Part shown: positions 792 to 43,276 of the stretch, in pieces
Layout: each line of letters begins with the position of its first letter
How positions within the stretch are numbered: the first letter of the stretch is position 1
NCBI GenBank assembly: GCA_944389885.1
Contig: CALXNZ010000002.1
Location: 124,001-188,000 of the forward strand
From: an uncultured Opitutales bacterium
Lineage (GTDB): Bacteria > Verrucomicrobiota > Verrucomicrobiia > Opitutales > Intestinicryptomonadaceae
DNA length: 64,000 bases
Reading direction: 5' to 3'
The notes under the pieces: model-generated
What the model was told of the DNA's origin: nothing
Database searches by the model: none
Seen by the model: the letters and a program-made list of their open reading frames with translations, nothing else
Program-made: the position numbers and the translations under genes

Positions 792-795
792 CTCT

Positions 796-4437: not shown

Positions 4438-4439
4438 AT

Positions 4440-22840: not shown

Positions 22841-22859
22841 TAAGAAAGGAAAATTTAAG

Positions 22860-25280: not shown

Positions 25281-26375
25281 ATGAACAGCGCAATAACAGC
25301 AATAAGCTATGCCGTACCCGACGGGAGGCTGACCCATGCGGAGCTCTGCTCGCGCTTCGGGACTTCCGTAATGGACAAGGTATCGAAATTGAGCGGAATA
25401 TTGGAGCGCAGGATATGCGCGGACGGCGAATGCGCTTCGGATTTGGCCGCACAAGCTGCAAAGAGGCTGTTCTATACGTCGGGAATCGGGCCGGACTCCA
25501 TAGATTTGCTGTTAATGGCTACCCAGACGCCCGACTTTGCGATGCCCACCACAGCCTGCATTCTGCAAGATAGATTAAGCATAAGCAAGTCGGCCGCATG
25601 TCTCGACATAAATCTCGGCTGTACCCAATTTATATACGCCATTGCCACGGCGCAATCATGGATTGCTTCCGGCTTGGCCAAGCGCGCTCTCGTTCTTTGC
25701 GCTGACACCCCGTCAAAACTGATAAATAAAATGGACAGGAGTGCCGTATCGATTTTCGGGGACGCCGCATGCGCCATACTTATAGAAAAGAGCCGCCTTC
25801 CCTCAATTATAGGATTCGACTTCGGCAGCGACGGTTCCGGATACGATGCCCTTATATGCCCATGTTCGGGAATGAGAAATCCGCCTTCGCCTCCAGACGC
25901 TGAAGAAAAACGCGATGCCGACGGAAACGTAAGAAGCAATATGAACATGAAGGTTGACGGGTTGAGGATTTTTGCCTTTGCCTACAAGACAATCCCGGAA
26001 TCGGTAAGCAATCTTTTAAATAAACGCGGGCTAAAAGTCTCCAATATAGACTTGTTCGTGTTTCATCAAGCCGGCTATAAGATTGTATCCGACGCCGCTG
26101 AACGTTTAAAAATCCCCAGAAAAAAAGTTTACTATAAAATGCACGACATCGGCAACTGCGGAGGCGCAAGCATAGGCATAGCATTGGCCGACGCCGTGTC
26201 CACAGGCAGATTAAGGCCGGGAATGAAAGTAGTATGCTGCGCATTCGGGGTCGGTTTATCGTGGGGGTCGGCCCTCATCGAATGGAGTGGAAATTTCCGT
26301 TCGGCATCACGCGTGGGAGATTTCTCGCGCAGTCCAGAAAAGCCAGAACAACAGCGCTGCGCGGATATGATATAA
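25281..26375 (+). CDS. 3-oxoacyl-ACP synthase III (FabH-like)
   Basis: Thiolase-fold ketosynthase that usually condenses an acyl-CoA starter with malonyl-ACP. The Cys-His-Asn triad is intact: Cys114 (NLGCTQF), His262 (FHQAGY), Asn292 (GNCGGAS). 364 aa, with a ~30-residue charged C-terminal extension beyond the normal end (GVGLSWGSALIEW). It has SDGSGYDALICPCSG in place of the usual central loop. No Shine-Dalgarno is obvious. It stands alone on the plus strand at the edge of the cluster, its stop touching the stop of the radical SAM fusion. A role as priming enzyme is inferred; a housekeeping FabH is the alternative but the sequence is divergent from it. Confidence 0.88.
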   Translation: MNSAITAISYAVPDGRLTHAELCSRFGTSVMDKVSKLSGILERRICADGECASDLAAQAAKRLFYTSGIGPDSIDLLLMATQTPDFAMPTTACILQDRLSISKSAACLDINLGCTQFIYAIATAQSWIASGLAKRALVLCADTPSKLINKMDRSAVSIFGDAACAILIEKSRLPSIIGFDFGSDGSGYDALICPCSGMRNPPSPPDAEEKRDADGNVRSNMNMKVDGLRIFAFAYKTIPESVSNLLNKRGLKVSNIDLFVFHQAGYKIVSDAAERLKIPRKKVYYKMHDIGNCGGASIGIALADAVSTGRLRPGMKVVCCAFGVGLSWGSALIEWSGNFRSASRVGDFSRSPEKPEQQRCADMI

Positions 26376-29300
26376 TCAGGGCTCCCTGCCTATAACCAGA
26401 GCGTAATTATTGCCTGTAAATCCGGAAGAAATACACAGTATGCGCTTGGCCATGTCGGGGAGATGGGCCCCGTCTATATCAGGATTCCCGGTTATCTGGG
26501 GCCAAAGCCTATCCGCGGAAAGGGCGCAAGCCAAAGAAAGCATTGCCGAAGTCGTTTCAATTTTTCCCGTATTAAACACCGTAGTTATAAGCGGGACTCC
26601 CTCAAACATATCGGTTGCTAAATCCAACACTTTCTTATCCTGCGCGTTTCCAAAGGGGCTGAACACTATCAAGTCAATATCCTCCGCCGCGCACCGCGAT
26701 TTCTCCAATGCCTCTATTACGGCGGACTTGAGGCATGCCCCTCCCAAATCCGGCTCGAGAAAATCCCCGCCGGACTGAAAAGCGCCGAATCCCATTATTT
26801 CTCCAAGTATCGCAGCCCCCCTGGTCTTTGCGTCGGATTCCCGCTCCAACATAAACGCAACGGCGCCCTCTCCCATGACAGTCTTTAGCGCATCTGCACA
26901 ACTGAGTCTGAAGTCTTTCTGCTCCTCCCCTGAATAAAGGCGCCCCACAAGCGAATATCCGCAGAGTTCCTGGGCGTACAACTCGTCCGCGGCGACAGCC
27001 AGCATAGCAGTCGCCGCCCCGTCCGCTATTTGCCTGCGCGCAAATTCAACGGCTTGCAGCCCGCAGTCGGAGCCCGATGTAAGAGTAATATTTGCCCCCC
27101 TCAACTCGAGAGCTTTTGAGACCCAGCCCGCAGTGGAATTAGCCGTGACATTTGAGAAACACGCAACATTTCCCTTCCCGTCTTTTGACGAGAATACCGC
27201 GTCCATATGAGGAGCCTCGTTGGAGCCCCTGCTTACAGACATTGCCAACCCAACCTTATCGGACAATTCCCGCCTTATTTTGAGCCCGGAAGAATCCAGA
27301 GCCGATTTTGCCGCAAGAGTCGCAAAAATACTTATCGGATTCATTCCGCTGAGATCGAGCCTCCTGTCGAGGGAACGCGCGGAGGGTAGCCGCACATTTC
27401 CCGACATAGAATCTGAATGGAAACGTTCCGGACAGCCTATCGCCACAACTCCATTATTTAATGCCGATAAGTTATCGGCCACGGTGAGCCCGAGGGGGCT
27501 GACAGCCCCGACACCGCTTATCACAATTTTTTCGGAGCCGCTTTCCCGCGATTTTGGGAGAGGCGAAATAAAATCGCGCTTGGCCACCACAATGGCCGCG
27601 TTATTCCCTGCAAAAGCATAATTGGCCGATAGAAAGCAATCGTAAGAGACATCTAAACGCTTATCCAGCGCCTCAACCTTGCAGCCCGAACGCAGCCCTA
27701 CATTATGAAGGGTCGCCGGAATAAAGTTTTCGTTCATAGCCAATAGTTGGCAAGTGGCTTCAAGTATGCCGGTGGCTCCCATACAGTGCCCCATATATGA
27801 TTTCGTGGACGTTATAGGAAGTTTGGCGGAACCGAGAAATTTCAATATGCCCTTAGACTCGGCCATATCGTTTGCGGCAGTGCCGGATCCGTGGGCATTT
27901 ATACAACCCAAATCTTCCGGATTAACCCCGGCATTGTCCGATGCGGCCTTCATCACCCTGAATGCGCCATCTCCGCGGGGATCCGGCTGCGTTGGATGAT
28001 GGGCGTCGGCTCCGCTGGCATGGCCTATGACCTTCCCGTAGCAGCGCGCCCTGCGCAGTAGAGCCGCCCCCATATTTTCTATAATCCAGAAAGCCGCGCC
28101 CTCGCCTATATTCATGCCCTCGGGGGTTGAAAATGGAGCTATTTTATTGGGTGAGACAACCTTTATAGCGCAAAACCCGGCGTAATTTGACAAAGCCACA
28201 GCATCGGCTCCGCCCACGAGCACAATTTCGCAATCTCCCGATTCTATAAGCGACTCCGCCAAGCCTATTGCCGCCGTAGAGCCCGAACATGCCGTATTAA
28301 CTACCCAGCAATCTCCAGATATTCCAAGGGCCGACGACATCGCTTTCGCCACGGCGTAGAACTCCGACTGGCTTGATACGGACAAATCAAAACGAGCCGA
28401 CGAATCGCCATATTTCTTTCTGTATTCAATCTCCCCGGAATTTAAGCCGGCATTGCATGTTGCAAGCACCATTCCGAACTTTTTCCCAATATTACGCAAA
28501 TCAATCCCGGCGTCCCTCAACGCCATGCGAGCCGCGCATATGGCCATGCGCAAATAAGGATCCGTAAAGGTCCGCATTTCACTTTCAGACATCAACAAAG
28601 ACGGATTGAAATCCTTAACCTCCGCGCACAGATGCCCCACAAACCTTGAAGTGTCTATTTTTGACGCCTCGGAGATTCCGTCCCTACCCTCGCGCAAAGC
28701 CTGCACCACGCTCTCCTTGTCGCAGCCCACAGGAGACAATATGCCAATTCCCGTTATTGCCGCTTCATGGCCGACTCCACGTTTTTGCATGCTTTTGCTT
28801 ATGGAAATCTCTCCTTTGTCCCACACCGACGGTTCCATGTGGGCTATATTTCTCTGGTGATTCATATCGTAAAACCCCTTCCAACAATTTACGAACTGCG
28901 AATACAAGGTGTCGGCCGACATTCGGGCAGGCTTGAATACGACATTCGCCCCATTGTATTTATGCCATTGGCGGGACGTTATCCTGCCCTGAGACATAAG
29001 CCTATCCCAATGCCTCGATCCGGGATAGGGGGAAAATATAAAAAATTCCGCGGTGTTTATATCGGCGTACGAGCAAAGCTCCAAAACTCTGTCCGATATG
29101 GAATCGTCGTCCCAATCCCTGCCTATTCCAAAAGACGCAAAAAAACCGATTCCCAATCCCCTGAGAGTGTCGGCAAAGTCTTTAAAGCGCGCCCTCAATC
29201 CCCTGTCATCTCCGCGCAAGAGCGCTATGGAAAGCGGATCAACATTCATAGTGCAATAAAAATTGCGCACTCCAGCCTTCGCGGCCTTCTCAATAAAATC

Positions 29301-30092
29301 CACACCGCAATTTAACGCGAGAGTGGAAGACACAAAAAACTTTTTTCCGGAATCGGCGATGGCGTCAAAAAACTTCTCCGCGTATTCCCTGACAGATTTC
29401 TGGGGAAAGAACAGTGAGTCGTCTGTAAGATACACGTTCTCGAACTTCAGCCTGGAAATCTCATCTACGGCCATATCAATCGGCTTAAACCTTATCCTGC
29501 CGCCCATGTGGCGCGGAATTATGCACATCGCGCAGTCGTAGTAGCAGCCGCGCGTAAGCTGTATAAGATCCTCGTCCCAATCGTACGATTGTTTGCCGTA
29601 AAACAAATCCCTGCGGGGTTCAGGCACATCGGCCATATCTACCGGACGCGACGCCTTGTATAAAGGCCTTAATTTTCCGGACCTCATATCCTCTATCACC
29701 TGGGGCCAGATGAGCTCCCCTTCCCCAACGCAAACGCTGTCCGCGTACTTTAGACATTCATCCGGCATGAAAGACGGAAACATTCCGCCCATAACGCACT
29801 TTTTGCCGCGCTCTTTGCACATGCGGGCAATCTCGAGGGCTCTCGTCCCCTGGGGGGTAAAGCTGCTTATCGCGTACAAATCGGATCCGTCCTCAAAATC
29901 CAGTGGTTCCCCGGCGTTGTCGTCGGTAAATGCAATATCTATATCCGGAGGCGTAATGGCCGCCAAAATCGGAATTCCGAGCGCCGGCGGACATGTAAAT
30001 TTCCCGACTGTAAAAAATCTGCTCTCCTCCTTCATGTTTGCGACGGAATCGAGAAACTTTTCAAAACGCGGATATATAAAATTTATTTTCAT
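26376..30092 (-). CDS. B12-type radical SAM + ketosynthase + chain-length-factor fusion
   Basis: Single 1238-residue frame with three units. (1) About 1-430: N-terminal B12-binding-like domain (PPALGIPILAA, VGEGELIWPQVIEDM) and radical SAM barrel with Cys183, Cys187, Cys190 in RGCYYDCAMC, which bind the 4Fe-4S cluster. (2) About 443-840: ketosynthase of KAS I/II type with the full triad, Cys602 (NTACSGS), His734 (NAHGSGT) and His769 (KSYMGHCMGA). (3) About 855-1238: second KAS fold in which the Cys position is Ser1008 (SGSDCGLQAV), the first His is lost (SPFGNAQD) and the second is Lys1177 (NTGKIETT), as in chain-length factors. The lipoprotein gene before it overlaps its start by 4 bases. 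I know no described enzyme with this order. No frameshift or internal start is needed to explain it. Confidence 0.9.
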   Translation of the reverse strand: MKINFIYPRFEKFLDSVANMKEESRFFTVGKFTCPPALGIPILAAITPPDIDIAFTDDNAGEPLDFEDGSDLYAISSFTPQGTRALEIARMCKERGKKCVMGGMFPSFMPDECLKYADSVCVGEGELIWPQVIEDMRSGKLRPLYKASRPVDMADVPEPRRDLFYGKQSYDWDEDLIQLTRGCYYDCAMCIIPRHMGGRIRFKPIDMAVDEISRLKFENVYLTDDSLFFPQKSVREYAEKFFDAIADSGKKFFVSSTLALNCGVDFIEKAAKAGVRNFYCTMNVDPLSIALLRGDDRGLRARFKDFADTLRGLGIGFFASFGIGRDWDDDSISDRVLELCSYADINTAEFFIFSPYPGSRHWDRLMSQGRITSRQWHKYNGANVVFKPARMSADTLYSQFVNCWKGFYDMNHQRNIAHMEPSVWDKGEISISKSMQKRGVGHEAAITGIGILSPVGCDKESVVQALREGRDGISEASKIDTSRFVGHLCAEVKDFNPSLLMSESEMRTFTDPYLRMAICAARMALRDAGIDLRNIGKKFGMVLATCNAGLNSGEIEYRKKYGDSSARFDLSVSSQSEFYAVAKAMSSALGISGDCWVVNTACSGSTAAIGLAESLIESGDCEIVLVGGADAVALSNYAGFCAIKVVSPNKIAPFSTPEGMNIGEGAAFWIIENMGAALLRRARCYGKVIGHASGADAHHPTQPDPRGDGAFRVMKAASDNAGVNPEDLGCINAHGSGTAANDMAESKGILKFLGSAKLPITSTKSYMGHCMGATGILEATCQLLAMNENFIPATLHNVGLRSGCKVEALDKRLDVSYDCFLSANYAFAGNNAAIVVAKRDFISPLPKSRESGSEKIVISGVGAVSPLGLTVADNLSALNNGVVAIGCPERFHSDSMSGNVRLPSARSLDRRLDLSGMNPISIFATLAAKSALDSSGLKIRRELSDKVGLAMSVSRGSNEAPHMDAVFSSKDGKGNVACFSNVTANSTAGWVSKALELRGANITLTSGSDCGLQAVEFARRQIADGAATAMLAVAADELYAQELCGYSLVGRLYSGEEQKDFRLSCADALKTVMGEGAVAFMLERESDAKTRGAAILGEIMGFGAFQSGGDFLEPDLGGACLKSAVIEALEKSRCAAEDIDLIVFSPFGNAQDKKVLDLATDMFEGVPLITTVFNTGKIETTSAMLSLACALSADRLWPQITGNPDIDGAHLPDMAKRILCISSGFTGNNYALVIGREP

Positions 30093-30637
30093 TTTTCAAA
30101 GTCCAATACCCGAAGTTTAATGCCTAATAACGATTGTTCCGCCGAGATCTCCATAGGCGCCGATACATCTCCTACGCGCGCAAAATTTGAAAAGCTTAAA
30201 ACCATATCGGAGGATTTTAGACGGATAGCATTTCCCTCTGCCGAATACTCGATTTCCCTGTCGCAAGAGCCGTCAACTATGCCCAAAGCCGCCCGCATAA
30301 AATCAGAGACAAAGCCGCGGGCGACATTCTCGGGAAAACCGTTGTAAACATCGATTTTATTTTCCTTGCCCGAATTGAACAGCCAAATTTTTGCAAGAGT
30401 ACCGCCGTCGCTTGACAGGGATATTTTAAGAAATCCGCCGGAAAGCGCAGCGCGCAGTATTACAGGAAATTCCGAATTGCCGACCCTGAACTCGCCTCTC
30501 GCCATAAAATAAGACAGACGGGAAAGCCCGAATCCGTCCAAGCGCACAAAGTTCCCGGATGTACGCGGAGTCAATATGTTGCATGCGGCAACATTAAGCA
30601 CAATGAGCACAAAGAGTATGCACTTGTAGAAATTCAC
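30089..30637 (-). CDS. Lipoprotein in polyene-like cluster (DUF3261-like layout)
   Basis: Signal peptide with lipobox LNVAAC (lipidated Cys19), then a ~160-residue domain with alternating short strands (GEFRVGNSEFPVILRAAL, LKISLSSDGGTLAKIWLF) and a C-terminal LLGIKLRVLDFEK. Aryl-polyene loci carry an outer-membrane-type lipoprotein of similar size (DUF3261) beside a LolA-like gene, and this pair has the same arrangement; I assign it by context, not by a diagnostic motif. It sits 3 bases after the LolA-like gene and overlaps the radical SAM fusion by 4 bases. Confidence 0.68.
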   Translation of the reverse strand: MNFYKCILFVLIVLNVAACNILTPRTSGNFVRLDGFGLSRLSYFMARGEFRVGNSEFPVILRAALSGGFLKISLSSDGGTLAKIWLFNSGKENKIDVYNGFPENVARGFVSDFMRAALGIVDGSCDREIEYSAEGNAIRLKSSDMVLSFSNFARVGDVSAPMEISAEQSLLGIKLRVLDFEK

Positions 30638-30640
30638 GCC

Positions 30641-31243
30641 TTAAAACTCGAATTTTAGAAAATCAGGGTTTCTCTCGTCAAGGGCGCCCCCTATATTGGA
30701 AGGGTTTTCCTTTACCGAAGAAAAATCAATTTCCCTCGTATCCCCGTCGATATAACGGAGCCTTATTTTCTTCGGGACAGTCCCATTTGAAGCGTAAAAA
30801 GACTCTATGCTGAGCAGGCCAGAGGGATCGTCCTTTGGCATTTTTACAACAATCCCGCCGGCGATTTTTTCAAGCTTCCAGCTGGGATCCGCCTTTCCTC
30901 CCAATACCATCGCGGCTATTCTCTTTACGAGAGCTCCCGCTTTCTCGGACGCCGAAGGGGAACTCAATCTGCGCCATTTTCCGTCTGCAAATTCGTAAAA
31001 CGACACTGAGCCGTCGGAAAACAGCGTTATGGATTTTGACGGGCTCAAAGTCTGCCACCGCACGCTTCCCGAAGAATTTGCCACCATAAATCCTGACGAG
31101 CGCAACGGCTTATCAAACATATTCGACTCAAGCCGGCTCTCAAATTTCAGTATCACTCCCGACAATCCCTTGAGTTCGGCCGCAAAGAGCTGGCTCCCAA
31201 ATACCGCGCATAGCGCTAAAAAAATTCCCAATATTTTTTTCAT
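30641..31243 (-). CDS. LolA-like periplasmic carrier protein
   Basis: Signal peptide (MKKILGIFLALCAVFGSQLFA), then a beta-rich domain with the LolA pattern: an amphipathic start (LKGLSGVILKFESRLESNMF), paired strands such as SSGSVRWQTLSPSKSITLFS, and PKKIRLRYIDGDTREIDFSSV near the end, which matches the LolA C-terminal half. About 200 aa. ATG 31243 has AAAGGG at good spacing. In polyene clusters such carriers are thought to move a lipid or product-lipid conjugate across the periplasm; that is inferred here. Confidence 0.8.
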   Translation of the reverse strand: MKKILGIFLALCAVFGSQLFAAELKGLSGVILKFESRLESNMFDKPLRSSGFMVANSSGSVRWQTLSPSKSITLFSDGSVSFYEFADGKWRRLSSPSASEKAGALVKRIAAMVLGGKADPSWKLEKIAGGIVVKMPKDDPSGLLSIESFYASNGTVPKKIRLRYIDGDTREIDFSSVKENPSNIGGALDERNPDFLKFEF

Positions 31244-31244
31244 T

Positions 31245-33374
31245 TTATACCCTTTCAAAAATCAATATTCCCACAAATCCCGTACTCGACAAGTTCCAGT
31301 GCGCAAAATAACGGCCTTCCGTCCTATCAGCGGCGCAGAAAATCCCACCGGACTTTGAATAGTTGTCCGACAGCGGAGAAATCATCTTAAAAGAATATCC
31401 AAGTTCCGACTGAAGGTTTTCCGAAAACTTGCGCGCGAATTTCCCCACGGGAGGCAGAGAAAAAAACGCGTCTATTTTAGACAAGTCGAATTCAAAACGT
31501 TTGAAGTCCTCCGCAATCATGTCGCGCTCAGCTTTCGGAGTCGATGCCCTCGCCCTATTAAAGACCCCGATTATCCTAAATTTAGGACGCATACCCGACA
31601 TCAACAAATCGCCCCCCAGCAAGTGCGCGGCTGAATAATCCGACGACGGGTAGGCGGAAGAATCCCGGCGATATCTTGCAAAATCGTCCGCCCACTTGTT
31701 CGTCATATCTCCGGCACACGCAAGCACCGCATCGAGTTTTCCGGTCCGCAGAGATGAGAAGGCCTGCTTTAGGGCGCACTCAAAAGATATTTCGCCGGCT
31801 GTCGCCGCGGAGTTTAGACCCTTAAATCCGAAATGCATAGCCAATAACGATGGCGGGGCATTGTGAACGGAGTTTACAAAAGATGTCGGAATGGGCTCGC
31901 TCTCGCGCTTTTTTATAGTCGCAGTCAGAAATTTTTCGATTTCGTCGGTCATTCCAAGTCCGGTTCCCCAACACACTCCTATTCTATTGGTATCTATTCT
32001 TTCGGAAAGTCTGGATAACTCCAAAGGCCGCGCAACTTCCAAGGCCATCTGTTGAAGCTTTGCCCATTTGCGTTTCTTGAGCTGAGGAATATCCTTAAGA
32101 AGTCCCGAGGCGTCGATTGCGCCATTGCCCCCTATTTCATGAGAGCCAAACACATAAACAGCGGAAGTTTTCCCATGGCGGATTTCGGGGCGAGCTCGAA
32201 CGCCGCGCCTTGAAACTACGGCGCAAGAATTGTTCCCGCCAAATCCGAAGCTCGCGCTCAATACATGCTCAATTTGCGCGTGAATCGGAGCTCCGACCGG
32301 GGACAATCCTATTTGCGGATCGACGGTTCTAAAACCCGCGCTCGGGGGAATTATGGAGCGCGATGCGCAAAATGCCGACACTATAACATTTAACACTCCG
32401 CTTGCGCCGAGAGTGTGTCCCACCACCCCTTTTATAGATGAGAATGGCGGCGGGACATCTCCGAATACACTCCGCAAAGCCTGAGCTTCCGACAGGTCGT
32501 TCCCCCGAGTTCCCGTTCCGTGGGCGCAATAAAAAGAGATGTCTTTCGGGGAGATTCCGGCAAGTTCAACCGCCAATTTCATCGCCCTGGCGGCGCCATC
32601 GCCGTCGGGACGCGGCGCGGTAGCGTGATACGCGTCCGCGGAAAGCCCCCATCCGGAGATATGCGCTATGGGCTTGAGAGAATGATTGTAGGCAAAAGAT
32701 TCCGAAGCCAGAACAATCACTCCAGCTCCCTCCCCAAGATTTATGCCGTCGCGATTTGCGTCAAATGGCCGCGAATCCGAATCGGAAAGCAACATTAGAG
32801 AGCCGAATCCGTTTACGGTCGTGCGCGATAGCGAATCCGCCCCGCAGACTACCGCCAACTCGAGCTCTCCGGAAGATATGGCCTCGCACGCCTCCGCTAT
32901 GGCTATGCCGGAACTCGAACACGCTGTGGAAAAAGTGCTGCAAGCACCCTTGCAACCAAGGCGTTTCGCCACAAACTCCGCCATATATGAACACTCGTAC
33001 TTTCCCAATACGCCTATATCCGGAACACCTCCCCGGTCGAGATATTTAGCCAACATATTTTCGGCGTCCAATACGCCTCCTATGCTCGTACCAAGAAATA
33101 CTCCAGAATTAGCGCCGCGCGGAAGATTCAGGTTTTCCAAAGCCTCGTCGAGAGCCGACAGCAAAATGCAACCGCAATTAGAAATCCCATGCCCGAGCCA
33201 CGAATGATTTATCGGGGCAATGCCAAATTTTTTATTTCCGAAGCGGGGGCTGTCGAAAATAGTCTGCCTACCGAAGAGGGGACGCCCTTCGAGAACGGCA
33301 TTCCACAATTTCTCCGCTCCCTGTCCGGCGCATGTGCATGCGCCTATAGAAACTATCAGCGGGGCGGAATTCAT
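31245..33374 (-). CDS. Ketosynthase fused to inactive KAS-like (chain-length-factor) domain
   Basis: 709 aa. Residues about 1-390 are a KAS II-type ketosynthase with Cys152 (STACSSSG), His285 (CAHGTGT) and His320 (KGVVGHTLGASG). Residues about 404-700 form a second domain like the N-terminal ketosynthase homologues (Ketoacyl-synt_2) used as chain-length factors in aryl-polyene synthesis: SFVNSVHNAPPSLLAMHFG and AATAGEISFECALKQA, with no catalytic Cys. It presumably extends the chain with ACP partners. Its start overlaps the ACP gene by 4 bases. KS and CLF are normally separate subunits, so this is a fusion of an obligate pair. Confidence 0.9.
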   Translation of the reverse strand: MNSAPLIVSIGACTCAGQGAEKLWNAVLEGRPLFGRQTIFDSPRFGNKKFGIAPINHSWLGHGISNCGCILLSALDEALENLNLPRGANSGVFLGTSIGGVLDAENMLAKYLDRGGVPDIGVLGKYECSYMAEFVAKRLGCKGACSTFSTACSSSGIAIAEACEAISSGELELAVVCGADSLSRTTVNGFGSLMLLSDSDSRPFDANRDGINLGEGAGVIVLASESFAYNHSLKPIAHISGWGLSADAYHATAPRPDGDGAARAMKLAVELAGISPKDISFYCAHGTGTRGNDLSEAQALRSVFGDVPPPFSSIKGVVGHTLGASGVLNVIVSAFCASRSIIPPSAGFRTVDPQIGLSPVGAPIHAQIEHVLSASFGFGGNNSCAVVSRRGVRARPEIRHGKTSAVYVFGSHEIGGNGAIDASGLLKDIPQLKKRKWAKLQQMALEVARPLELSRLSERIDTNRIGVCWGTGLGMTDEIEKFLTATIKKRESEPIPTSFVNSVHNAPPSLLAMHFGFKGLNSAATAGEISFECALKQAFSSLRTGKLDAVLACAGDMTNKWADDFARYRRDSSAYPSSDYSAAHLLGGDLLMSGMRPKFRIIGVFNRARASTPKAERDMIAEDFKRFEFDLSKIDAFFSLPPVGKFARKFSENLQSELGYSFKMISPLSDNYSKSGGIFCAADRTEGRYFAHWNLSSTGFVGILIFERV

Positions 33375-33643
33375 TTTGATCTGGCCATGACAAAATCGGC
33401 CAAAGCCGCCGGAGAGCGGAATATCTTTTTCACGTCGTCCTTATTGTCAACTGAAACGGAATACTTGGACTCTATCATAACAACGAGTTCAAGGGCATCG
33501 ACAGAATCCAAACCGAGTCCGGAATCTCCGAAGAACTCCGCGTCGTCGGCGATATCGGACGCGGACATATCGCCGAGATTTAACGCGCTTATGACATTCT
33601 TTTTTATATCTTCGATTAAGCTTTGTCTATCCATACCGGTCAT
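33371..33643 (-). CDS. Acyl carrier protein (cluster copy 1)
   Basis: Carries the growing chain on phosphopantetheine. Motif GLGLDSVDALEL gives the attachment serine (Ser47 counted from this ATG). The acidic helix II ELVVMIESKYSVSVD follows. ATG 33643 is chosen for 90 aa, with AAAGTGG upstream; an ATG three codons later is equally possible, and the frame is open to 33679. It overlaps the ketosynthase gene by 4 bases, which fits direct partnership. Confidence 0.9.
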   Translation of the reverse strand: MTGMDRQSLIEDIKKNVISALNLGDMSASDIADDAEFFGDSGLGLDSVDALELVVMIESKYSVSVDNKDDVKKIFRSPAALADFVMARSK

Positions 33644-33691
33644 ATCGCGCCACTTTAGGGCGGGAAGAATCATTATCAAGAATAAATATGC

Positions 33692-36600: not shown

Positions 36601-36964
36601 GGAATGCCGAAATCAAAGCCCCGATAAAATCGCCATTGAGAAATTCTCCGGCCCCATTTCCCGGGAAAGACGCCAGTTTTCCTCCCTGAAGTTTTTCGGT
36701 GAGCAATTTAGCGGCGGCGGACGAATCCTCTGCGCTATTTCCGCAGACCCCGAAAAACACTGCGCGAGTTTGGCCGAATAATTCCGCAGCCCCCCTATAA
36801 TCGTCCAACACCGAATTGCGGAACGGCAATATGCCGTATATGTTTTCGCCATATCTGGCTCCAACCGCAAAAAAAGCCGAAACCGCCGTCGAGATTGCCA
36901 ATAGGGCGATGAACACAAATTTGCGGGCGCATACAAGCTCCGCTATTCTCCTTGAAACTCTCAT
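33692..36964 (-). CDS. MMPL/RND exporter fused to LpxL-like acyltransferase
   Basis: 1090 aa. Residues about 1-790 are an RND/MMPL transporter with two sets of membrane helices and two periplasmic loops; ISVGVSIDYAIHVLSR and AVCLAQDYAVFMIYDYR mark the proton-relay helices of each half. Residues about 800-1090 match the LpxL/HtrB lysophospholipid acyltransferase family: VVVLTAHAGGWQ, FIGDSGDASG, AMHADRYAGGRYV, PFQWYNFFDFW. The usual HX4(D/E) active site reads His921...Gln926, so the acidic residue is missing. Probably exports the cluster product or its lipid and acylates it. It starts inside the GT2 3' end (4-base overlap). Upstream MMPL exporters occur in aryl-polyene and xanthomonadin loci; the fusion is less usual. 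Confidence 0.88.
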   Translation of the reverse strand: MRVSRRIAELVCARKFVFIALLAISTAVSAFFAVGARYGENIYGILPFRNSVLDDYRGAAELFGQTRAVFFGVCGNSAEDSSAAAKLLTEKLQGGKLASFPGNGAGEFLNGDFIGALISAFPYIFDSEAESSLELGIRKDFLKRRIEYFKERMALGASPQLRGVFSGDPANILGIWLQKLKKSVSPSDLSAFSSEMSGCSDGRAILIVGELLSDTSDASAARKISERISDTVSEIERKTGAEIFWSGACRIAAENFSTASADSKFCLFLTLAAMLAITFLAFRNVWFAFAAIIPSMLGALFGFACSRCFFTEISPIASAFAGISVGVSIDYAIHVLSRLDIFEKITPKLAAETSEMFARPISVVAGSTLIAFAAMAVLGESGFVQIGVIGGLGITFSALLCVLFLPAFLSGIRLKKSGRSAFGIAAETFYPRLKRLGLRGFCACAILSGLSLWEIQNLNFDGSPDSFNGLGPEAQNDSDKLREIWGGALKRSAIIARGSDMSSALAENSKLSSFLSGIKGIKYYSLAHLLPDASSAGKNFERWKHFWSPQRKADFMRNLKDACAECGVKEAVFSDSMSLADASPTPLDTSKLESIFKGRIACGANGVSILTLVEFGDDADRAAFAKSLSDSFPNAAFADADFLSGEISDIASVWLRNFAAATFVLVAIYLFVALGGVKGAFTALTPVAIGLLWTFATMSLIGEPVNMVNAVFVVFAVCLAQDYAVFMIYDYRKNGNCAASLRSTAASALTTAAAFGVLAAAKHPVLSSLGIAAGLSIVFIYAATLLTVPPLLARGEGDGNPNAGWTGRTRGGYWGNFCFLLLLRIGLLPAYVLLVFVAGFFQVFRSGLCVYSRVYLDKLFGEKRGFMPFKLYRLLYSFGMSIIDRVAYFSDSGKIRCRDSAEHVVREGLGRGCGVVVLTAHAGGWQISSGELLKYGVEVGLVGAELERSDIRELFESRMRKARPKFIGDSGDASGMLSAYSVLKGGGIVAMHADRYAGGRYVNAEFLGSTLRVPLAPYILAAKSGAALVLVVCFKTGYAEYSMRAIEIPIRKNASAGECAAAAEKFLSELSKALKKHPFQWYNFFDFWGQ

Positions 36965-37674
36965 TTCCCGAGGGCGATTTTCCTAAGTTTTTCTCTCGAA
37001 AACACGAGGCTTTGAAACCAAAGCTTCGCATTCATTATCGAGAATTTCACGGTGTCTGCAATGGGCCTATAATGGGATCTCGCCAGAACACCGGCATTAT
37101 ATATTGTCGGAATCTCGAGTGGAATGATACCGATTCCAGCCCAAGCAGCCTTCACAAGAAGCTCGCTTTCAAATGTAAATCCGTCAAAAGACATGTCCAA
37201 CCCGGATATTTTGGAAATTGGATAACACCTGAATCCGCACTGGGTATCTCCCAAACGAACTCCCGTTTCAGCCTTGAACCAGAAATTGGAAAATCTGTTC
37301 ATAAACCTGCGCGATACGGGAACGGTGGAATCCGAAAAATTGCGCACACCCGCAACTATGCAATCCGGATTTCCAGCGGCGGCCTCAAGAAATCGACCCA
37401 CCTCGGAAGGCGGATGCTGCCCGTCGGAATCCATTGTCACCGCGTGCGTGTAGCCATCGCATAATGCCCTTTTAAAAGCCGCCTTCAATGCGTAAGCCTT
37501 TCCATGGTTTTTATCAAACCTAATGAGTCTGACGCCCCCAAAAGTATCGGATATCGACACGGGCGGAACGGAGCCGTCGTCCACCACAAAAATATCCGCG
37601 CCGGATATTCCGCCCAAGACTTCCGCAAGGGAGTCCCCGTGATTATGGCATGGAATAATGACGCAGAATCTCAT
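36961..37674 (-). CDS. Family 2 glycosyltransferase
   Basis: 237 aa GT-A fold enzyme of the dolichyl-phosphate-mannose-synthase type. Seen: FCVIIPCHNHGDSLAEVL, VVDDGS, DSDGQHPPSEV (metal-binding DxD), GDTQCGFRCYP and a basic C-terminus without membrane helices. A similar GT2 is found beside the MMPL gene in aryl-polyene clusters, where a glycosyl head group is thought to be added. First gene of the minus-strand run of the cluster; its start faces the divergent ACP gene across 89 bases. Confidence 0.9.
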   Translation of the reverse strand: MRFCVIIPCHNHGDSLAEVLGGISGADIFVVDDGSVPPVSISDTFGGVRLIRFDKNHGKAYALKAAFKRALCDGYTHAVTMDSDGQHPPSEVGRFLEAAAGNPDCIVAGVRNFSDSTVPVSRRFMNRFSNFWFKAETGVRLGDTQCGFRCYPISKISGLDMSFDGFTFESELLVKAAWAGIGIIPLEIPTIYNAGVLARSHYRPIADTVKFSIMNAKLWFQSLVFSREKLRKIALGK

Positions 37675-37763
37675 GACACTTGATTTTACCTTGAAATGGC
37701 CCTACAAATCTTTTTTATTTTCCGACAGTTTTTTACATAAATTTATTTTTGCAATTACAAAAA
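37675..37763. promoter_or_regulatory. Divergent promoter region of the cluster
   Basis: Only gap between oppositely pointing runs in the cluster, 89 bases and AT-rich, so it must drive GT2 > ... > radical SAM fusion on the minus strand and ACP > GcvT-like > thioesterase > FabG on the plus strand. TTGAAA at 37691 and TACATA at 37734 are candidate plus-strand elements but their spacing is poor; no operator is clear. Confidence 0.4.
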
Positions 37764-38051
37764 ATGCCAAGCAATACGGAAAGATTTGCCGAGCGCAAAG
37801 AAATAACTGAAACACTGAAGGCCAGACTCATAGAAAACCTGGATATTCCATACCGCCCGGACGATATAAGCGACGACGTTGCGCTGATAGGTTCGGGGCT
37901 CGGGCTGGATTCGCTCGACGTGCTGGAGATAGTTTTGTGCGTGGAAAACAATTTCGGAGTAAAAGTTCCGGAATCGAGTTCCCATATACTCCGTTCCCTG
38001 AACACCTTGGCGGATTTCATAATGGAGGAACGCGGCAAATGCGCAAACTGA
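37764..38051 (+). CDS. Acyl carrier protein (cluster copy 2)
   Basis: 95 aa. Attachment serine in GSGLGLDSLDVLEIVL (Ser50 from this ATG). Closest in pattern to the first cluster ACP (both have GLGLDS), which suggests paralogues with separate jobs, as in aryl-polyene loci that carry two ACPs. ATG 37764 is used; a TTG five codons upstream is in frame. Overlaps the GcvT-like start by 13 bases. Confidence 0.9.
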   Translation: MPSNTERFAERKEITETLKARLIENLDIPYRPDDISDDVALIGSGLGLDSLDVLEIVLCVENNFGVKVPESSSHILRSLNTLADFIMEERGKCAN

Positions 38052-39130
38052 CACTTGAAAAACTCTGGGAGGCGGAGGGAGCAAACTTCGGGCAAGCGGG
38101 GGGCGCGCAATGCGTCGCTGACTTCGGGAATGCCGACGCCGAATACGGGAAGCTTCGCAACAGCGCGGCTCTCTGCGATTTTTCATTCACCCAACGCCTA
38201 TCCTTTGACGAATCCGACGGAATCGACTTTCTCGATTCAATGCTCGCTGCCAATATACTGAAACTGCGATACGGAAGAATAACCGACACTTATCTCGCCG
38301 ACGAATACGGCAATATTAGAGCCGAAGTGCTCGCCGGAAATATAGACGATAAAATAATCGCCGTACTCGAATCGCTCGACGACTCATGCTCGAAATGCCT
38401 TTCTGATGGTTCCGCACAATGCTCCGATTTAACAGATTCCCATATCCTATTATCGGTTGACGGCCCGGATTCATGGAAGGTCGCAGTGGCGGTATTCGGA
38501 ACCGACATACTCAACCTTCCATTTATGTCGGTAGAAAAGTATCGCTATGAAGACGCCGACACTTATCTAATGCGCAGCGGAAAAACCGGGGAATACGGCT
38601 ATCAGTTCATGGCCCCAAACGCGATTGCGGAGAAACTCGCAAAACGCCTTTTGGAGGAATCTAAAAAGCTCGGGGGCGGACTGTGCGGAATGGCCGCGCA
38701 CGCCCTTGCAAGGCTCGACGGAAATTTTTTTAATATATACGGGGAAGGCGCAAGAGTACTGAACCCTCTAAAACTCGGCCTGCAATGGATGACGGATTTT
38801 GAAAAGGAAAAATTTCCGGGTTCCGAAAAAATATACTCGGAACGCGACTCCGGTATTTCACAAAAAATCTGCGCCGTGCAATCGGCCGGAGACACCCCCC
38901 TCAATCCCGGGGATAAAATATTCGACTCCGACGATGAAGTAGGGGAAGTTGTACACGCCCTAAGATCTCCAATATCCGGGAAATGGACCGGGCTCGCCCT
39001 CATGAAATCGCATTGCGCGTTTTCCGGTTTTGGTTTTTCAAGAACCCCAAACGGCGGCGAAGAAATATTCACCGTTTCACGCCCGACAGTGCTCGCCAAA
39101 AGCCTCAGCAAACCTATGCTTCAAGAATAA
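38039..39130 (+). CDS. GcvT/YgfZ-like folate-binding protein in lipid cluster
   Basis: 363 aa with the aminomethyltransferase fold: NSAALCDFSFTQRLSF, the VDGPDSWKVAVAVFG segment (GcvT has a similar GP motif), SGKTGEYGYQFMAP (like GcvT tGexGye), and NPLKLGLQWMTDFEKEKFPG. True glycine-cleavage T-protein would sit with gcvH/gcvP; none are here. Folate or one-carbon chemistry on a small molecule is possible, as is a non-enzymatic role like YgfZ. ATG 38039 is chosen from the start of the domain and the ACP overlap. Ends with TAATG, sharing a base with the thioesterase. Confidence 0.82.
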   Translation: MRKLTLEKLWEAEGANFGQAGGAQCVADFGNADAEYGKLRNSAALCDFSFTQRLSFDESDGIDFLDSMLAANILKLRYGRITDTYLADEYGNIRAEVLAGNIDDKIIAVLESLDDSCSKCLSDGSAQCSDLTDSHILLSVDGPDSWKVAVAVFGTDILNLPFMSVEKYRYEDADTYLMRSGKTGEYGYQFMAPNAIAEKLAKRLLEESKKLGGGLCGMAAHALARLDGNFFNIYGEGARVLNPLKLGLQWMTDFEKEKFPGSEKIYSERDSGISQKICAVQSAGDTPLNPGDKIFDSDDEVGEVVHALRSPISGKWTGLALMKSHCAFSGFGFSRTPNGGEEIFTVSRPTVLAKSLSKPMLQE

Positions 39131-39552
39131 TGCCGCGAAGAATAACACGCAGGCTCGAATTCACACCGGAATTCAGAGAATTCGACATGATGGGCGTAGC
39201 CCATAACGCCGCTTATTTTAATTGGTTTGAAAGGGGGAGATTCCAAATACTCAACGATATAATGCCGATGTCGGAATCTTTAAGAAACAAGCTCGCAGTG
39301 GTCGTTCTGGAAAATCGCTGCAAGTATGTGGAATCAATCCGATACGAAGAGCCGCTCCTGCTGATTACCCGCCATAAAATAGACGACTTTTACACGGGCC
39401 GCCTCGAGTTTGAGCATGAACTCTCAGGCCTAAACACAAAGCGCCTGCACGCTACGGGATTTTGCATGTGCTCAATAATAAATACCGACACCGGCGCTCT
39501 CGCCCGCGAATTCCCGCAGGAATTATGGCAGAAATACTCTTCTCTAAAATGA
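39130..39552 (+). CDS. 4HBT-family acyl thioesterase
   Basis: Hot-dog-fold thioesterase of 140 aa. The motif [20 protein letters not shown] fits YbgC-type enzymes (catalytic Asp in FDMMG), followed by [12 protein letters not shown] and a C-terminal strand region. Likely releases the ACP- or CoA-bound product, or proofreads. Shares one base with the upstream gene and overlaps the FabG start by 4 bases. Confidence 0.88.
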
Positions 39553-40283
39553 ATCTCGAAGGAAAAACAGCAATCGTAACAGGTGGCTCGCGGGGAATAG
39601 GCGCGGCCGTCGTGGAGAAATTGTCGGAGCTTGGCGCAAAGGTCTATTTCACTTATCAAAAAAGCGCCGCCAGCGCCGAAGCTTTGGCCGAACGCTGTAA
39701 AGCCCGCGCAATGCTATGCCCCCAATCTGACGGTGAATCCATATCGAAACGTGTAGCTGAAATACTTTCTGAATGCGGTTCAATAGACATTCTCGTAAAC
39801 AATGCGGGCATCACAAGAGACACATATCTGCCTCTCATGCCGGAATCCGAATGGAACACGGTAATAGACACAAATCTGAACGGCGCATACCGTTGGACAA
39901 AAGCCGTATCAAAATCTATGTACTCAAACAGGAGAGGAAGCATAGTATTCATATCCTCTGTATCGGGCCTGGTGGGAATTCCCGGGCAGACAAACTATGC
40001 GGCGAGCAAGGGCGCAATATGTTCATTTATGCGGGCTATCGCCGCGGAATTCGGAACAAGGGGAATACGCGCAAACTGTGTGTGCCCGGGGTTTATTTCC
40101 ACAGATATGACCGCAAAAATCCCGCGGGACATCGCAAACGCCCAAAAGAAAAGGATAGTTATGGGGCGTTTCGGGAATCCTTCTGAGGTCGCCGACGCGG
40201 TGGCGTTTTTGGCCTCTGATAAAGCATCGTATATAACAGGCCAAATACTCACCGTTGACGGAGGCTTGACGGGCTGCGCCTAA
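39549..40283 (+). CDS. 3-oxoacyl-ACP reductase (FabG-like SDR)
   Basis: NADPH-dependent ketoreductase, 244 aa. Seen: [14 protein letters not shown] cofactor loop, NNAGIT, SSVSG with the catalytic Ser, YAASKG (Tyr/Lys), [13 protein letters not shown], and VDGGLTG at the end. Frame is open upstream, but ATG 39549 overlaps the thioesterase stop (ATGA) and matches the family start [12 protein letters not shown]. Its stop overlaps the stop of the opposite-strand flavin reductase by 4 bases. Confidence 0.95.
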
Positions 40284-41353
40284 GCGTTTCCGCGGGGAAA
40301 AATGCGATTGAGCTTTGCCATGAGCGACAAGTCTCCCTCAACTTTCAAAAAGCCTTTCTTCATCTCCTCAATAGCATTTTTACGCCCCGAAGACAGCCCT
40401 ACCCAGACTTCCGGAGCGCAATACACGGCCAACTGCTCCTTAAAATCCGAACTGCGGCAAAGTTCGCACGAGCCTTCAGCGATTTTTATGGAATAGACGC
40501 GCGAATCCCCAAAGTCAAAGCGTATTGACGCGTTCTTTGGCGAGTTTTGCGGAGAAAACCTCTTGCACATTTCAGAAAGAAGAATTCCCATATCTTCGGA
40601 AGCCGCCCCGGAGGAAAATCCACCACGACTATCCCCGCGTTTCCTCAAAGCCCAGAATACTTTAGCGTTTGCGGCAAAGGCTGCGTCGCTCTCAGCCAAT
40701 TCAAGTTCCGCCGTTCTCAATGTGCGCGGCTGTATAAAACCTTCCAAGCCGAATTGCTCTCCGGCCTTCACCATTGCGTCAAGCACGCGCCGGACACGCA
40801 GGGACATTCCGCCGAGTATGGAAAAATATGGAGACTCACCACGCCTAATGTCGGCCACATATTCTATGCCCAAAGCCCCGGCTATAGATGCATATGTCGC
40901 CGACATGGCATCAAACGAACCTCTCAGCCTCCCGGAAGCAATGCTTATTGTGACAAGCTTTTTAGGCTTTAGAGGAAATGAGGTTATATTTATCAAATTG
41001 CCCTTTTCCTTATCGAAGTCGTATCCCTTGACGAAAGGAAAACATCTGTCAAAGAACGCCTTCATCTGGGCGCTCATTCCATAGAAGTATACCGGTGAGA
41101 CACAAACTAAGGCGTCGGCCTCCTCAACCAAGGGTATGATGGCGCGCATATCGTCGTTTATCGGGCAAGCTCCGCGCGCGCTGTCGGACGAAGAGCATAT
41201 AAAGCAACCTCTGCACGGGTTTATATTTGACGAACACAAGTCTACATCGTCCACATGCGCGGGAGTTCTGCGCAAGCCTTCCGCGAACAGATCGGCCATT
41301 TTGTCCGATACCCCTCCTTTGCGGGGATTCCCTCTCAGAATCAACACCCTCAT
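40280..41353 (-). CDS. NADPH-dependent FMN reductase with SCP2-like C-terminal domain
   Basis: 357 aa, two parts. N-terminal flavodoxin-like reductase (about 1-185): [18 protein letters not shown] (FMN phosphate loop), Cys47-x2-Cys50-x2-Cys53 with Cys63 (ferredoxin-like iron-sulfur flavoprotein layout), [19 protein letters not shown]-terminal ~100 residues (about 255-357): [15 protein letters not shown] and [37 protein letters not shown] match the sterol-carrier-2 lipid-binding domain. A redox enzyme carrying its own lipid-binding domain could act on the cluster's acyl product, perhaps saturating or desaturating it. Start overlaps the FabZ stop by 4 bases. Confidence 0.82.
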
Positions 41354-41793
41354 ATTGCGACATTTTCCGCAGACACCAAAACCAGCACTCCCGAAGCCAC
41401 AAGGCGCTGTTCGGACAATGCCTCCACCGAGAAACGGCAGAGACCGCCGTATTCGCGCTCGAGACGAGATTTAAGCTCAAGAGTTTCGCCTGCGCGAGCC
41501 ACGCTTACAAATTTAATATTGTTTGACGCCAGAAAGAACATTTTGTTCCCGGGTTCCGAATCTGCTTTTAGAGCCAAAAGCAATCCGCTCGCCTGGGCAA
41601 GGGCCTCAACTGCTATAACTCCGGGAAGTATGGGCATGTTCGGGAAATGCCCCTTAAAAAAGGGCAATTCCGGTTTTAGCTCAAAAGTTGCGCATATGCT
41701 TCCGCGCTTCTCGAAAGACGCGACCGAATCCACAAATAAAAACGGATCGCGATGCGGTAAATAATTCTTTACGCTTTCCCTATTTAAAATCAT
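41350..41793 (-). CDS. 3-hydroxyacyl-ACP dehydratase (FabZ-like)
   Basis: 147 aa hot-dog dehydratase. NYLPHRDPFLFVD at the start, GHFPNMPILPGVIAVEALAQASG with His49 and Glu63 as the likely catalytic pair. Dehydrates the ketoreduced chain; the only dehydratase in the locus. Sits between PlsC-like and flavin reductase genes in an operon led by addB. Confidence 0.93.
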   Translation of the reverse strand: MILNRESVKNYLPHRDPFLFVDSVASFEKRGSICATFELKPELPFFKGHFPNMPILPGVIAVEALAQASGLLLALKADSEPGNKMFFLASNNIKFVSVARAGETLELKSRLEREYGGLCRFSVEALSEQRLVASGVLVLVSAENVAI

Positions 41794-41801
41794 CTGCTAC
41801 G

Positions 41802-42578
41802 TCATTTAAACGATTGGCGCAGTTGGGCAAGTTTTTTCGAAATTCTCGAATAGGCCGCGTCCGACATTTTCCCATACGATAATCCCGATTCTAAAGGCGG
41901 CAAAAAGTCTATTATGAATTTGTTTCCCTTTTTTTGAGGAAGCCACGGTTGCCCTTTTGAAAGAAATGGATACCTTGAAAATACCACGCAAGGATAAACC
42001 GGAGCATTGCTCTCATGGGCAAGCTTAAACGCGAGCCCCTGAAAGTCTTGAAGCCTGCCGTTCTTGCTGCGTTTGCCTTCGGGAAACACTATCAGATTGC
42101 GCCCGGAAGCCAGAATTTTACGCGCGGAGGAAAACGCCGCAGCCGCGGCTGCGGGAGAGCGACTGTCTATAACGCAGAAGTCGAATATTTTTATAAGCAC
42201 CCAGACCGCCAACCAGTTCTTATATTTTCTTTTTATGACAACCCCGGCGTTTGGAATCAGCGACAACAAAAACAGCGGATCCAAAAGCGACGAATGGTTG
42301 CATACATAAACGCAGCCGGATTTCTCACTCAAAGCCGGAGGCAGTTCGATTTCATACATGCCCAGCCGCGGCCAAAGCTTGAGAGTTTGGAAAGCCAATA
42401 TATGCCGGAGAGCGCGGGACAAAAACAACTTGCGTTTATGCGGAGCAAACGCAACACATATCGCGGCAGATGAAATTATAAATATCAGATTGGCGAAGAT
42501 ATAAATTATCCCGCAGGCTATAAATTTGAAATTGAAGAGTGCCCCGCCAATTCCGGAAAATTTTTCTGTACGCTCCAT
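41802..42578 (-). CDS. 1-acyl-sn-glycerol-3-phosphate acyltransferase-like (PlsC family)
   Basis: 258 aa membrane-bound LPLAT. Hydrophobic N-terminus (about 18-45), HX4D active site His95...Asp100 (CNHSSLLDPLF), and FPEGKRSKNGRL acceptor motif. Probably attaches the cluster product, or a fatty acid, to a lipid backbone. Eight bases separate it from fabZ. Confidence 0.9.
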   Translation of the reverse strand: MERTEKFSGIGGALFNFKFIACGIIYIFANLIFIISSAAICVAFAPHKRKLFLSRALRHILAFQTLKLWPRLGMYEIELPPALSEKSGCVYVCNHSSLLDPLFLLSLIPNAGVVIKRKYKNWLAVWVLIKIFDFCVIDSRSPAAAAAAFSSARKILASGRNLIVFPEGKRSKNGRLQDFQGLAFKLAHESNAPVYPCVVFSRYPFLSKGQPWLPQKKGNKFIIDFLPPLESGLSYGKMSDAAYSRISKKLAQLRQSFK

Positions 42579-42595
42579 TTTTTATAATAGAGAAA

Positions 42596-43276
42596 TCACA
42601 AGCGAGCACCCTTTTCAAGGCTTAACCTATCCGCAAAAACCAATCCGAAATGCCGGAATATCGCCAAAACCGCAACCAATAGCGCGAATACGGGAATTCC
42701 CACCCACGAAGAATCGGCCGCCGCCGCCCCAATGCAAATTACGGCCAAAGCTATGGCTCCCTGAACAAACAGCCCTACAAAAAAGTAAACTCCGAACCTG
42801 ACCGACAAGGCTCCAAGAAAAATATTCTGCAGCCAGTAGGGAACACCCGGCACGGCTCTAATAAAAAAGCATATGTCAAAATCCGCTCTGGCAGTCCCGA
42901 TTTTACCGACGACATTCCCCACTCCCATTTTAGCCATAACACCCGACAACGCGGAACGCTTTAGACGGGATTCCGCCCAGCCGCAAGGGAGAATAAAGCG
43001 TCCCGCAAAAAAACCCATGGTTGAACTCAAAACCAGAGCCATGAGGCACAAGCCCCACCCTTCAAGTATTCCGAAAGCCGCCCCGGCCGAAAAATAACAC
43101 AGTGAAACCGGCAGCCCCAAGGCGCATCCTATTCCCATTCCCAAGAAAAACAATTCCGCGCTACCCGACTCCAACGCCAACATTTTCATTTCTTCAAACA
43201 CCACGCCCCAACCGAATGCATACTCCACAAGCGCAATTATAGAGCAAAACAGCGCCACTCTCAAAAAGATTTTCAT
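42596..43276 (-). CDS. TVP38/TMEM64 (VTT-domain) membrane protein
   Basis: 226 aa with five to six helices. The SNARE-associated/VTT signature FFIRAVPGVPYWLQNIFLGAL and GFFAGRFIL identify the family, related to phospholipid scramblases and DedA proteins. ATG 43276 overlaps the addA stop (ATGA). Possible role in moving a lipid intermediate, inferred only from its neighbours. Confidence 0.85.
   Translation of the reverse strand: MKIFLRVALFCSIIALVEYAFGWGVVFEEMKMLALESGSAELFFLGMGIGCALGLPVSLCYFSAGAAFGILEGWGLCLMALVLSSTMGFFAGRFILPCGWAESRLKRSALSGVMAKMGVGNVVGKIGTARADFDICFFIRAVPGVPYWLQNIFLGALSVRFGVYFFVGLFVQGAIALAVICIGAAAADSSWVGIPVFALLVAVLAIFRHFGLVFADRLSLEKGARL

Follow-up and report, generated by a model that had tools for sequence, protein, structure and literature searches.

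A 16-gene locus lies at positions 25281-43318 of a 64,000-nucleotide stretch of DNA from an uncultured gut bacterium of the Opitutales (contig CALXNZ010000002.1, positions 124,001 to 188,000; the window in what follows). We consider it fairly probable that this locus encodes a highly reducing type II polyketide synthase (PKS) that is primed with a short acyl-CoA by a ketoacyl synthase of the KASIII type and makes a non-aryl chain of polyene type for an outer-membrane lipid. The genes were delimited by a listing of open reading frames (ORFs) together with Pfam and NCBIfam scans (Table 1), and the host genome comprises 2.2 Mb in 27 contigs and is 95.9% complete. An original prediction, made from the sequence alone, had described a locus resembling those for aryl polyenes (APE), without an aromatic starter route and possibly with an unusual polyene as its product. 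Our analysis agrees with this, apart from the end of the locus, which had been put at 43276 while the last gene ends at 43318. The enzyme types named there, from KASIII, ketosynthase (KS), chain length factor (CLF) and two acyl carrier proteins (ACPs) to the ketoreductase (KR), dehydratase (DH), thioesterase (TE), MMPL exporter, family 2 glycosyltransferase (GT2), acyltransferases, radical S-adenosylmethionine (SAM) enzyme, GcvT-like protein and FMN-reductase-SCP2 protein, are all present in the scans.

The KS and CLF are however not a single pair, as had been thought, but two KS-CLF fusions, one of which has the radical SAM enzyme as its N-terminus. In this protein, one ORF of 1238 amino acids, a B12-binding-type/radical SAM part (about residues 1-440) is followed by the KS (about 441-840) and then by the CLF. 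The radical SAM part has both the CxxxCxxC motif and a B12-binding-type N-terminal fold; it scores 33.0 bits against PF02310 (cut-off 32.1) and 27.2 bits against PF04055, which is below the cut-off of 29.5. When aligned with the FabF-like KS of this genome and with the KSs of the Escherichia coli APE locus, both fusions have the Cys, His, Lys and His of the KS intact, and the Cys of the CLF is replaced, by Ser in the radical SAM fusion and by Glu in the second one (KSB). The CLF half weakly matches the ketosynthase chain 6kxd (2.2e-9), which we take to be the ishigamide enzyme. In KASIII the Cys, His and Asn motifs (NLGCT, VFHQA and GNCGG) are preserved, and the catalytic sets of the KR and both ACPs are complete. 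No enoyl reductase (ER) was found in the Pfam scans of the locus, where the only match so named is PF13561 on the FabG-type KR, and double bonds would therefore stay in the chain. The parts by which a highly reducing type II PKS is recognised are thus together: a KS with the catalytic Cys, a CLF without it, ACP, KR and DH, and no ER in the locus.

Syntenic copies of the locus are present in 12 further members of the family (regions L087-L098), and its gene order recurs in independent genomes, so that it is more than chance. One of these genomes is that of the fusion-bearing Puniceicoccaceae bacterium Marseille-Q1082, which NCBI assigns to Verrucomicrobiota, Opitutia, Puniceicoccales. The KS-CLF protein is found in 12 of the 12 regions, KASIII in 9 and the pair ACP2-GcvT in 7; several of the remaining regions are short contigs, and L094, which is long enough, is without ACP2-GcvT. 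In L093 and L095, KASIII sits at the opposite end of the locus, and a gene that is present in 9/12 regions even with its place changed has kept its linkage. TE, KR, DH, FMN reductase and PlsC adjoin the locus in some family members and not in others, and SCP2 was not found in L096. Among the 19 family genomes, this one (G000) and two more (G299, G293) have the full radical SAM-KS-CLF protein, ten have the KS-CLF without the radical SAM domain, in G300 it is cut by the contig end, and five have no such protein. Since the 19 genomes have no match to residues 1-417 of the query, the radical SAM part, other than in the three fusions, the domain has not moved elsewhere in a detectable form, and the ten genomes that keep the locus without it suggest that it is an optional tailoring domain. 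The single-contig genome G296, of the same genus, gave no match even to an ordinary FabF or FabH, and it may be masked, mis-binned or simply odd.

Beyond the family, a contig search with a KS-CLF alignment yielded 55 candidate stretches, of which 31 were confirmed, namely the 12 family loci, 8 distant loci at 43-48% identity and 11 KS/CLF proteins at 27-33% from Actinomycetota and Chloroflexota; a first contig search with a single protein confirmed 0 of 3 stretches, and in none of 1049 plasmid records was 80% of the query covered at one place. The distant loci come from Omnitrophota (three) and from Verrucomicrobiales, subdivision 3, other Verrucomicrobiota, Chitinispirillaceae and Kiritimatiellia (one each), which places the fusion in Omnitrophota, Fibrobacterota, Kiritimatiellota and other Verrucomicrobiota. 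The radical SAM part is present in all eight (49-53% identity), and the block ACP2-GcvT-TE-KR stands beside the fusion in four of them (L111, L115, L117 and L124); the contigs of L112, L118 and L119 are short, and the block is lacking in the 17.6 kb of L114. A free-standing malonyl-type PF00698 acyltransferase follows the KR in L111, L115 and L117, and the last of these, from Omnitrophota, also has a full-length homologue of the FMN-reductase-SCP2 protein (29%, E 6e-52). The FMN-reductase part was rejected as a marker of the locus, as it is matched in 154 of 288 genomes of the phylum. The GcvT-like protein, KASIII and radical SAM had been called additions to an APE locus, but the first and the radical SAM fusion are shared across phyla, and KASIII throughout the family. 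Four of 387 sampled genomes of the phylum gave a strong match, this genome included and one (G338) without the radical SAM domain; the system is rare in the phylum, and it is old and crosses phyla. In the Chitinispirillaceae locus (L118), the region immediately upstream of the fusion (3-3952) is occupied by ORFs for MetH-like homocysteine methyltransferases, one of which has B12-binding domains.

A KS tree was built from 84 of 134 domains, without the second domains, the loci present in duplicate, short fragments and a small number of named partial rows. KSA (22 rows), from the radical SAM fusion, and KSB (13 rows) are each set off from all other rows by a branch with 99% SH-aLRT. In approximately unbiased (AU) tests on 71 rows, with fewer actinobacterial rows and without L004, a grouping of KSA with ApeR was rejected (p-AU 0.0028). 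The fused radical SAM domains form one clade (100%) in a tree of 44 of 47 rows, and group with the free-standing radical SAM proteins of APE-like clusters in other Verrucomicrobiota (95%), with one other sequence closer. On the KS-CLF tree, for which five fusion rows were left untrimmed before alignment and columns filled in less than 30% of the rows were dropped, the presence of the radical SAM domain requires at least three changes, or four if only losses are counted on the tree as drawn. Our preferred reading is an old fusion with repeated loss of the radical SAM domain, with regain as the alternative.

The absence of an aromatic starter was judged against the APE locus of E. coli CFT073, of which 17 proteins were compared with the window from 20 to 50 kb by tblastn. 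Both KSs, the KR, both DHs, MMPL, TE, GT2, one ACP and the lysophospholipid acyltransferase were matched there, and ApeH, the methyltransferase, CLF, the other ACP, LolA, DUF3261 and a 582-base gene were not. Taking all evidence together, the locus has the KS-CLF, ACPs, KR, DH, TE, GT2, MMPL, LolA and lipoprotein of a canonical APE system, and is without its ApeH, aromatic-acid source and head-group methyltransferase. Neither ApeH nor the methyltransferase was matched in the 12 syntenic regions, some of which are short contigs, and the aromatic ammonia-lyase (PF00221) and UbiC/chorismate lyase (PF04345) are each absent from 19 of 19 family genomes, with positive controls in 5/14 and 1/14 (E. 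coli), respectively. A full aromatic route beside a syntenic copy, which had been named as the case that would speak against the prediction, was thus searched for in these regions and genomes, and none was found. PMC8253772 states that UbiC supplies the 4-hydroxybenzoate of the E. coli APE and that the cluster has no dedicated phosphopantetheinyl transferase (PPTase); APE are treated in PMC8358021 also. The E. coli APE locus has itself neither an ammonia-lyase nor a PPTase, so the absence of these two, which had been thought to set our locus apart, is not diagnostic, and a single AcpS-type PPTase is found in the genome away from the locus. The telling gaps are the missing synthetase and the missing aromatic source. 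A plain APE cluster was accordingly rejected for lack of ApeH, methyltransferase, lyase and UbiC, and a flexirubin/dialkylresorcinol cluster was rejected on the scores of KASIII against the DarB/StlD-type models NF005293 (56 bits against 450) and NF053539 (37 against 550).

The genus also has a canonical system. In the family, ApeH gave clear matches only in G290 (E 1.7e-30) and G295 (3.9e-25); those in this genome, G297 and G301 are weak (E 3e-5 to 1.3e-4). G295, of the same genus, is without our locus but carries a nearly complete APE cluster (L102, G295:C11:20001-40000) with 14 of the 17 E. coli proteins matched, among them ApeH, CLF, both ACPs, ApeR (56%) and KR (59%), and with an AMP-binding-ApeI fusion in the Pfam scan; LolA, DUF3261 and the methyltransferase were not matched there. 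The genus thus has both systems, and the locus described here is a different one. No aromatic lyase or UbiC was matched in the genome of G295 in spite of its canonical cluster, and the absence of these families alone cannot therefore exclude an aryl starter.

Several observations weigh against our reading. The missing methyltransferase is weak evidence taken alone, since the APE region of G295 has no match to it either. KASIII is unmatched in all 8 distant loci and stands outside the shared core; as the sole FabH-type match found in the genome, it may serve ordinary fatty acid synthesis too. The grouping of KSA with ApeO was not rejected (p-AU 0.326). In L124, an APE-type methyltransferase with 46% identity to the E. 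coli one is found near the radical SAM-KS-CLF gene, together with an aminotransferase-type protein (weak GNAT match) and an MMPL-methyltransferase ORF, and this leaves room for an aromatic head in L124. The use of B12 by the radical SAM domain is also only putative, as the nearest fold to its model is the dehydratase AprD4. Some of these points could be drawn together in a divergent APE pathway acting in trans, in which an unlinked ligase would load an ACP with an aromatic acid, either dietary or made by an unlinked enzyme, and the product of the locus would be an ordinary APE. The resemblance of KS, ACP, KR, DH, TE, GT2, MMPL and acyltransferase to the E. coli parts fits such a pathway, as do the tolerated ApeO grouping (p-AU 0.33), the methyltransferase of L124 and a weak AMP-ligase match outside the window (G000:C2:197755-198654, E 9.1e-5, 23%). 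We regard it as improbable, given the rejected ApeR grouping, the lack of ammonia-lyase and UbiC in all 19 genomes and of ApeH in the locus, the KASIII that is kept in it, and the canonical cluster of the genus that sits in a genome without the locus.

In most relatives with the locus, a further FabH-type copy, more distant in sequence, lies elsewhere; here KASIII may do two jobs, or the assembly may lack a second copy. A KASIII that is the only FabH-type match of the genome, with the PlsC and LpxL-like acyltransferases, the FabZ-type DH and the FabG-type KR, would fit a second fatty acid or polyunsaturated fatty acid system that serves the acylation of phospholipid or lipid A and makes no pigment. 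We find this rather unlikely, as an ordinary FabF-like KS is found elsewhere in the genome (G000:C8) and is placed apart from KSA and KSB, and the distribution is patchy, with the 4 strong matches in 387 genomes. CLF partners, a second KS-CLF, a TE and MMPL/LolA export are not known as parts of housekeeping fatty acid synthesis. Genes of methylmalonyl-CoA mutase type (mutAB, window 20762-25043) end shortly before the KASIII gene, which makes a propionyl starter tempting, and this adjacency is not kept among the family regions that were fetched.

A ladderane-like lipid had also been suggested; in this or another cyclised lipid, the radical SAM domain would close rings on a polyene. PMC2649909 describes radical SAM and FabF clusters with phytoene-dehydrogenase-like genes in Kuenenia and Desulfotalea, and a radical SAM beside several KS genes does resemble these anammox and Desulfotalea clusters. 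Ladderane clusters have moreover been called in Verrucomicrobiota, Omnitrophota and Fibrobacterota among others, phyla that also carry the fusion, with function unknown outside the anammox taxa according to PMC9902471. Such a product is nevertheless very unlikely here, and a ladderane-type cluster was rejected: the radical SAM part reaches 48.1 bits against a cut-off of 360 for TIGR04072, Pfam scans of the 16 proteins found no phytoene-dehydrogenase-like gene, and, of the 13 family loci in which the KS-CLF is complete, 10 are without the domain. Its model (pLDDT 84) is nearest to AprD4 (Z 29.1, 376 aligned, rmsd 2.8), the structure of which is titled a 1,2-diol dehydratase, followed by MgmA and CysS (Z 22.7); AprD4 is not known to bind cobalamin. 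With these as the nearest folds, both methylation and radical dehydration are possible for the domain.

The GcvT-like protein adjoins ACP2 in 7 family loci and 4 distant ones. Its profile matches the aminomethyltransferase 1yx2 at 8.7e-44, in keeping with a folate-binding fold, and a DD stretch of 1yx2, which presumably holds the catalytic Asp of the T-protein, is aligned to A/E in the GcvT-like profile, so ordinary glycine cleavage is unlikely. Nothing relevant that links GcvT to polyketide ACPs was found in the open-access library. As for the export proteins, Pfam gave no hit for the LolA-like protein, yet solved LolA structures are the best Foldseek matches (E 6.9e-10) of its AlphaFold model (pLDDT 79.9), as had been expected of it. 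The lipoprotein, likewise without a Pfam hit, has a Cys after a lipobox-like VAA near its N-terminus, and nine positional homologues align at 15-23% identity. The MMPL exporter had been predicted correctly as to its presence but not as a stand-alone protein, since it is fused to the LpxL-like acyltransferase; the two are separate genes in relatives, e.g. L088 and L090.

We thus return to the KASIII-primed, highly reducing PKS, whose support lies in the complete active sites and the Cys-less CLFs, in the missing aromatic-route families, in the kept linkage of KASIII, in a core shared across phyla and in export parts that match APE. KASIII would condense a short acyl-CoA with malonyl-ACP, and the two KS-CLF units would elongate the chain on the two ACPs, with KR and DH acting in every round. 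The radical SAM domain, in cis on one KS-CLF, could optionally modify the bound chain by C-methylation or by an AprD4-like radical dehydration, and the GcvT-like protein may work with folate on a substrate bound to ACP2. TE, PlsC, the LpxL-like domain and GT2 would free the chain and link it to a lipid or a glycolipid, and MMPL, the LolA-fold protein and the lipoprotein would presumably bring the product to the outer membrane.

A tentative extension, which we think possible without expecting it, is that the single-chain radical SAM-KS-CLF enzyme and the ACP-GcvT pair mark an undescribed cross-phylum class of lipid type II PKS, with radical editing of the chain on the synthase and folate one-carbon chemistry on the carrier-bound chain. 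Repeated loss of the radical SAM domain among the gut Opitutales would then have produced natural variants of a single lipid. A radical SAM domain in cis with a KS-CLF would put radical editing inside an iterative polyketide synthase. We found no description of such a fusion in the open-access literature, a scope that excludes subscription papers and preprints; PMC10132072 catalogues type II KS-CLFs, and the words "radical" and "fusion" are absent from its main text. The family offers a ready comparison, since related species have or lack the domain in an otherwise retained locus and a canonical APE is found in a sister species, and the locus may help to sort the many "ladderane" and "arylpolyene" calls in these phyla.

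Table 1. Genes of the locus (window positions) and neighbours of the fusion in the distant locus L124 (positions in L124)
Feature	Position	Strand	Remarks
KASIII (FabH-type)	25281..26375	+	364 aa; putative chain initiation; NF006829 273 bits, cut-off 249
Radical SAM (B12-type fold)+KS+CLF fusion	26376..30092	-	1238 aa; PF02310, PF04055, PF00109/PF02801; CxxxCxxC
Predicted lipoprotein	30089..30637	-	182 aa; lipobox-like VAAC near N-terminus; occupies place of APE DUF3261/LolB-like protein
LolA-fold periplasmic carrier	30641..31258	-	205 aa; AlphaFold model and Foldseek
Second KS-CLF fusion (KSB)	31245..33374	-	709 aa; PF00109/PF02801
ACP1	33371..33679	-	102 aa; PF00550; GLGLDS phosphopantetheine site
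MMPL exporter fused to LpxL-like acyltransferase	33692..36964	-	1090 aa; PF03176+PF03279
GT2 glycosyltransferase	36961..37674	-	237 aa; PF00535
ACP2	37749..38051	+	100 aa; PF00550; GLGLDS; overlaps GcvT gene
GcvT-like folate-binding protein	38039..39130	+	363 aa; PF01571 116 bits
Hot-dog thioesterase (4HBT_2)	39130..39552	+	140 aa; PF13279; 26% identity to E. coli APE thioesterase
FabG-type ketoreductase	39525..40283	+	252 aa; PF13561 228 bits; TGGxxGIG, YxxSK motifs
FMN reductase-SCP2 fusion	40280..41353	-	357 aa; PF03358+PF02036
FabZ-like dehydratase	41350..41793	-	147 aa; PF07977 69 bits; NF000582 109 bits, cut-off 113
PlsC-type acyltransferase	41802..42578	-	258 aa; PF01553 68 bits
VTT-domain membrane protein	42596..43318	-	240 aa; PF09335 34.4 bits, cut-off 33.9; present in L090 too
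L124 neighbours	2-2002, 3028-4794, 16013-17359		MMPL-methyltransferase ORF, aminotransferase-type protein, APE-type methyltransferase

In comparison with known systems, the locus shares with the APE locus of E. coli CFT073 two KS, CLF, two ACPs, KR, DH, TE and GT2, and also the lysophospholipid acyltransferase, MMPL, LolA (by fold) and a lipoprotein, but it is without an ApeH-type synthetase or methyltransferase and adds KASIII, the radical SAM-KS-CLF, the second KS-CLF, GcvT, FMN-reductase-SCP2 and the MMPL-LpxL fusion. The APE-like clusters of other Verrucomicrobiota (L032-L036, L040-L044) have, in most loci, a related radical SAM (about 30%), KS, GT2, LpxL-like acyltransferase, ACP and MMPL; their radical SAM is however free-standing, often paired and accompanied by a SPASM radical SAM, an AMP ligase is present in L032, GcvT had no match in the loci compared, and the KSs fall in separate clades. 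An aromatic lyase was not found in the 12 non-window genomes tested alongside these clusters, and in L035 the SPASM radical SAM comes with an ApeP-like dehydratase stretch. The ladderane-type clusters of anammox bacteria and Desulfotalea have radical SAM genes beside several FabF-like KS, as PMC2649909 describes, and the locus differs from them in a radical SAM far below the family cut-off and in having no phytoene-dehydrogenase-like gene. With the highly reducing type II PKS of ishigamide (Iga11-Iga12) it has in common the KS-CLF pair, ACP, KR, DH and the lack of an ER, and it differs in having KS and CLF in one chain, the radical SAM domain in cis and genes for lipid export.

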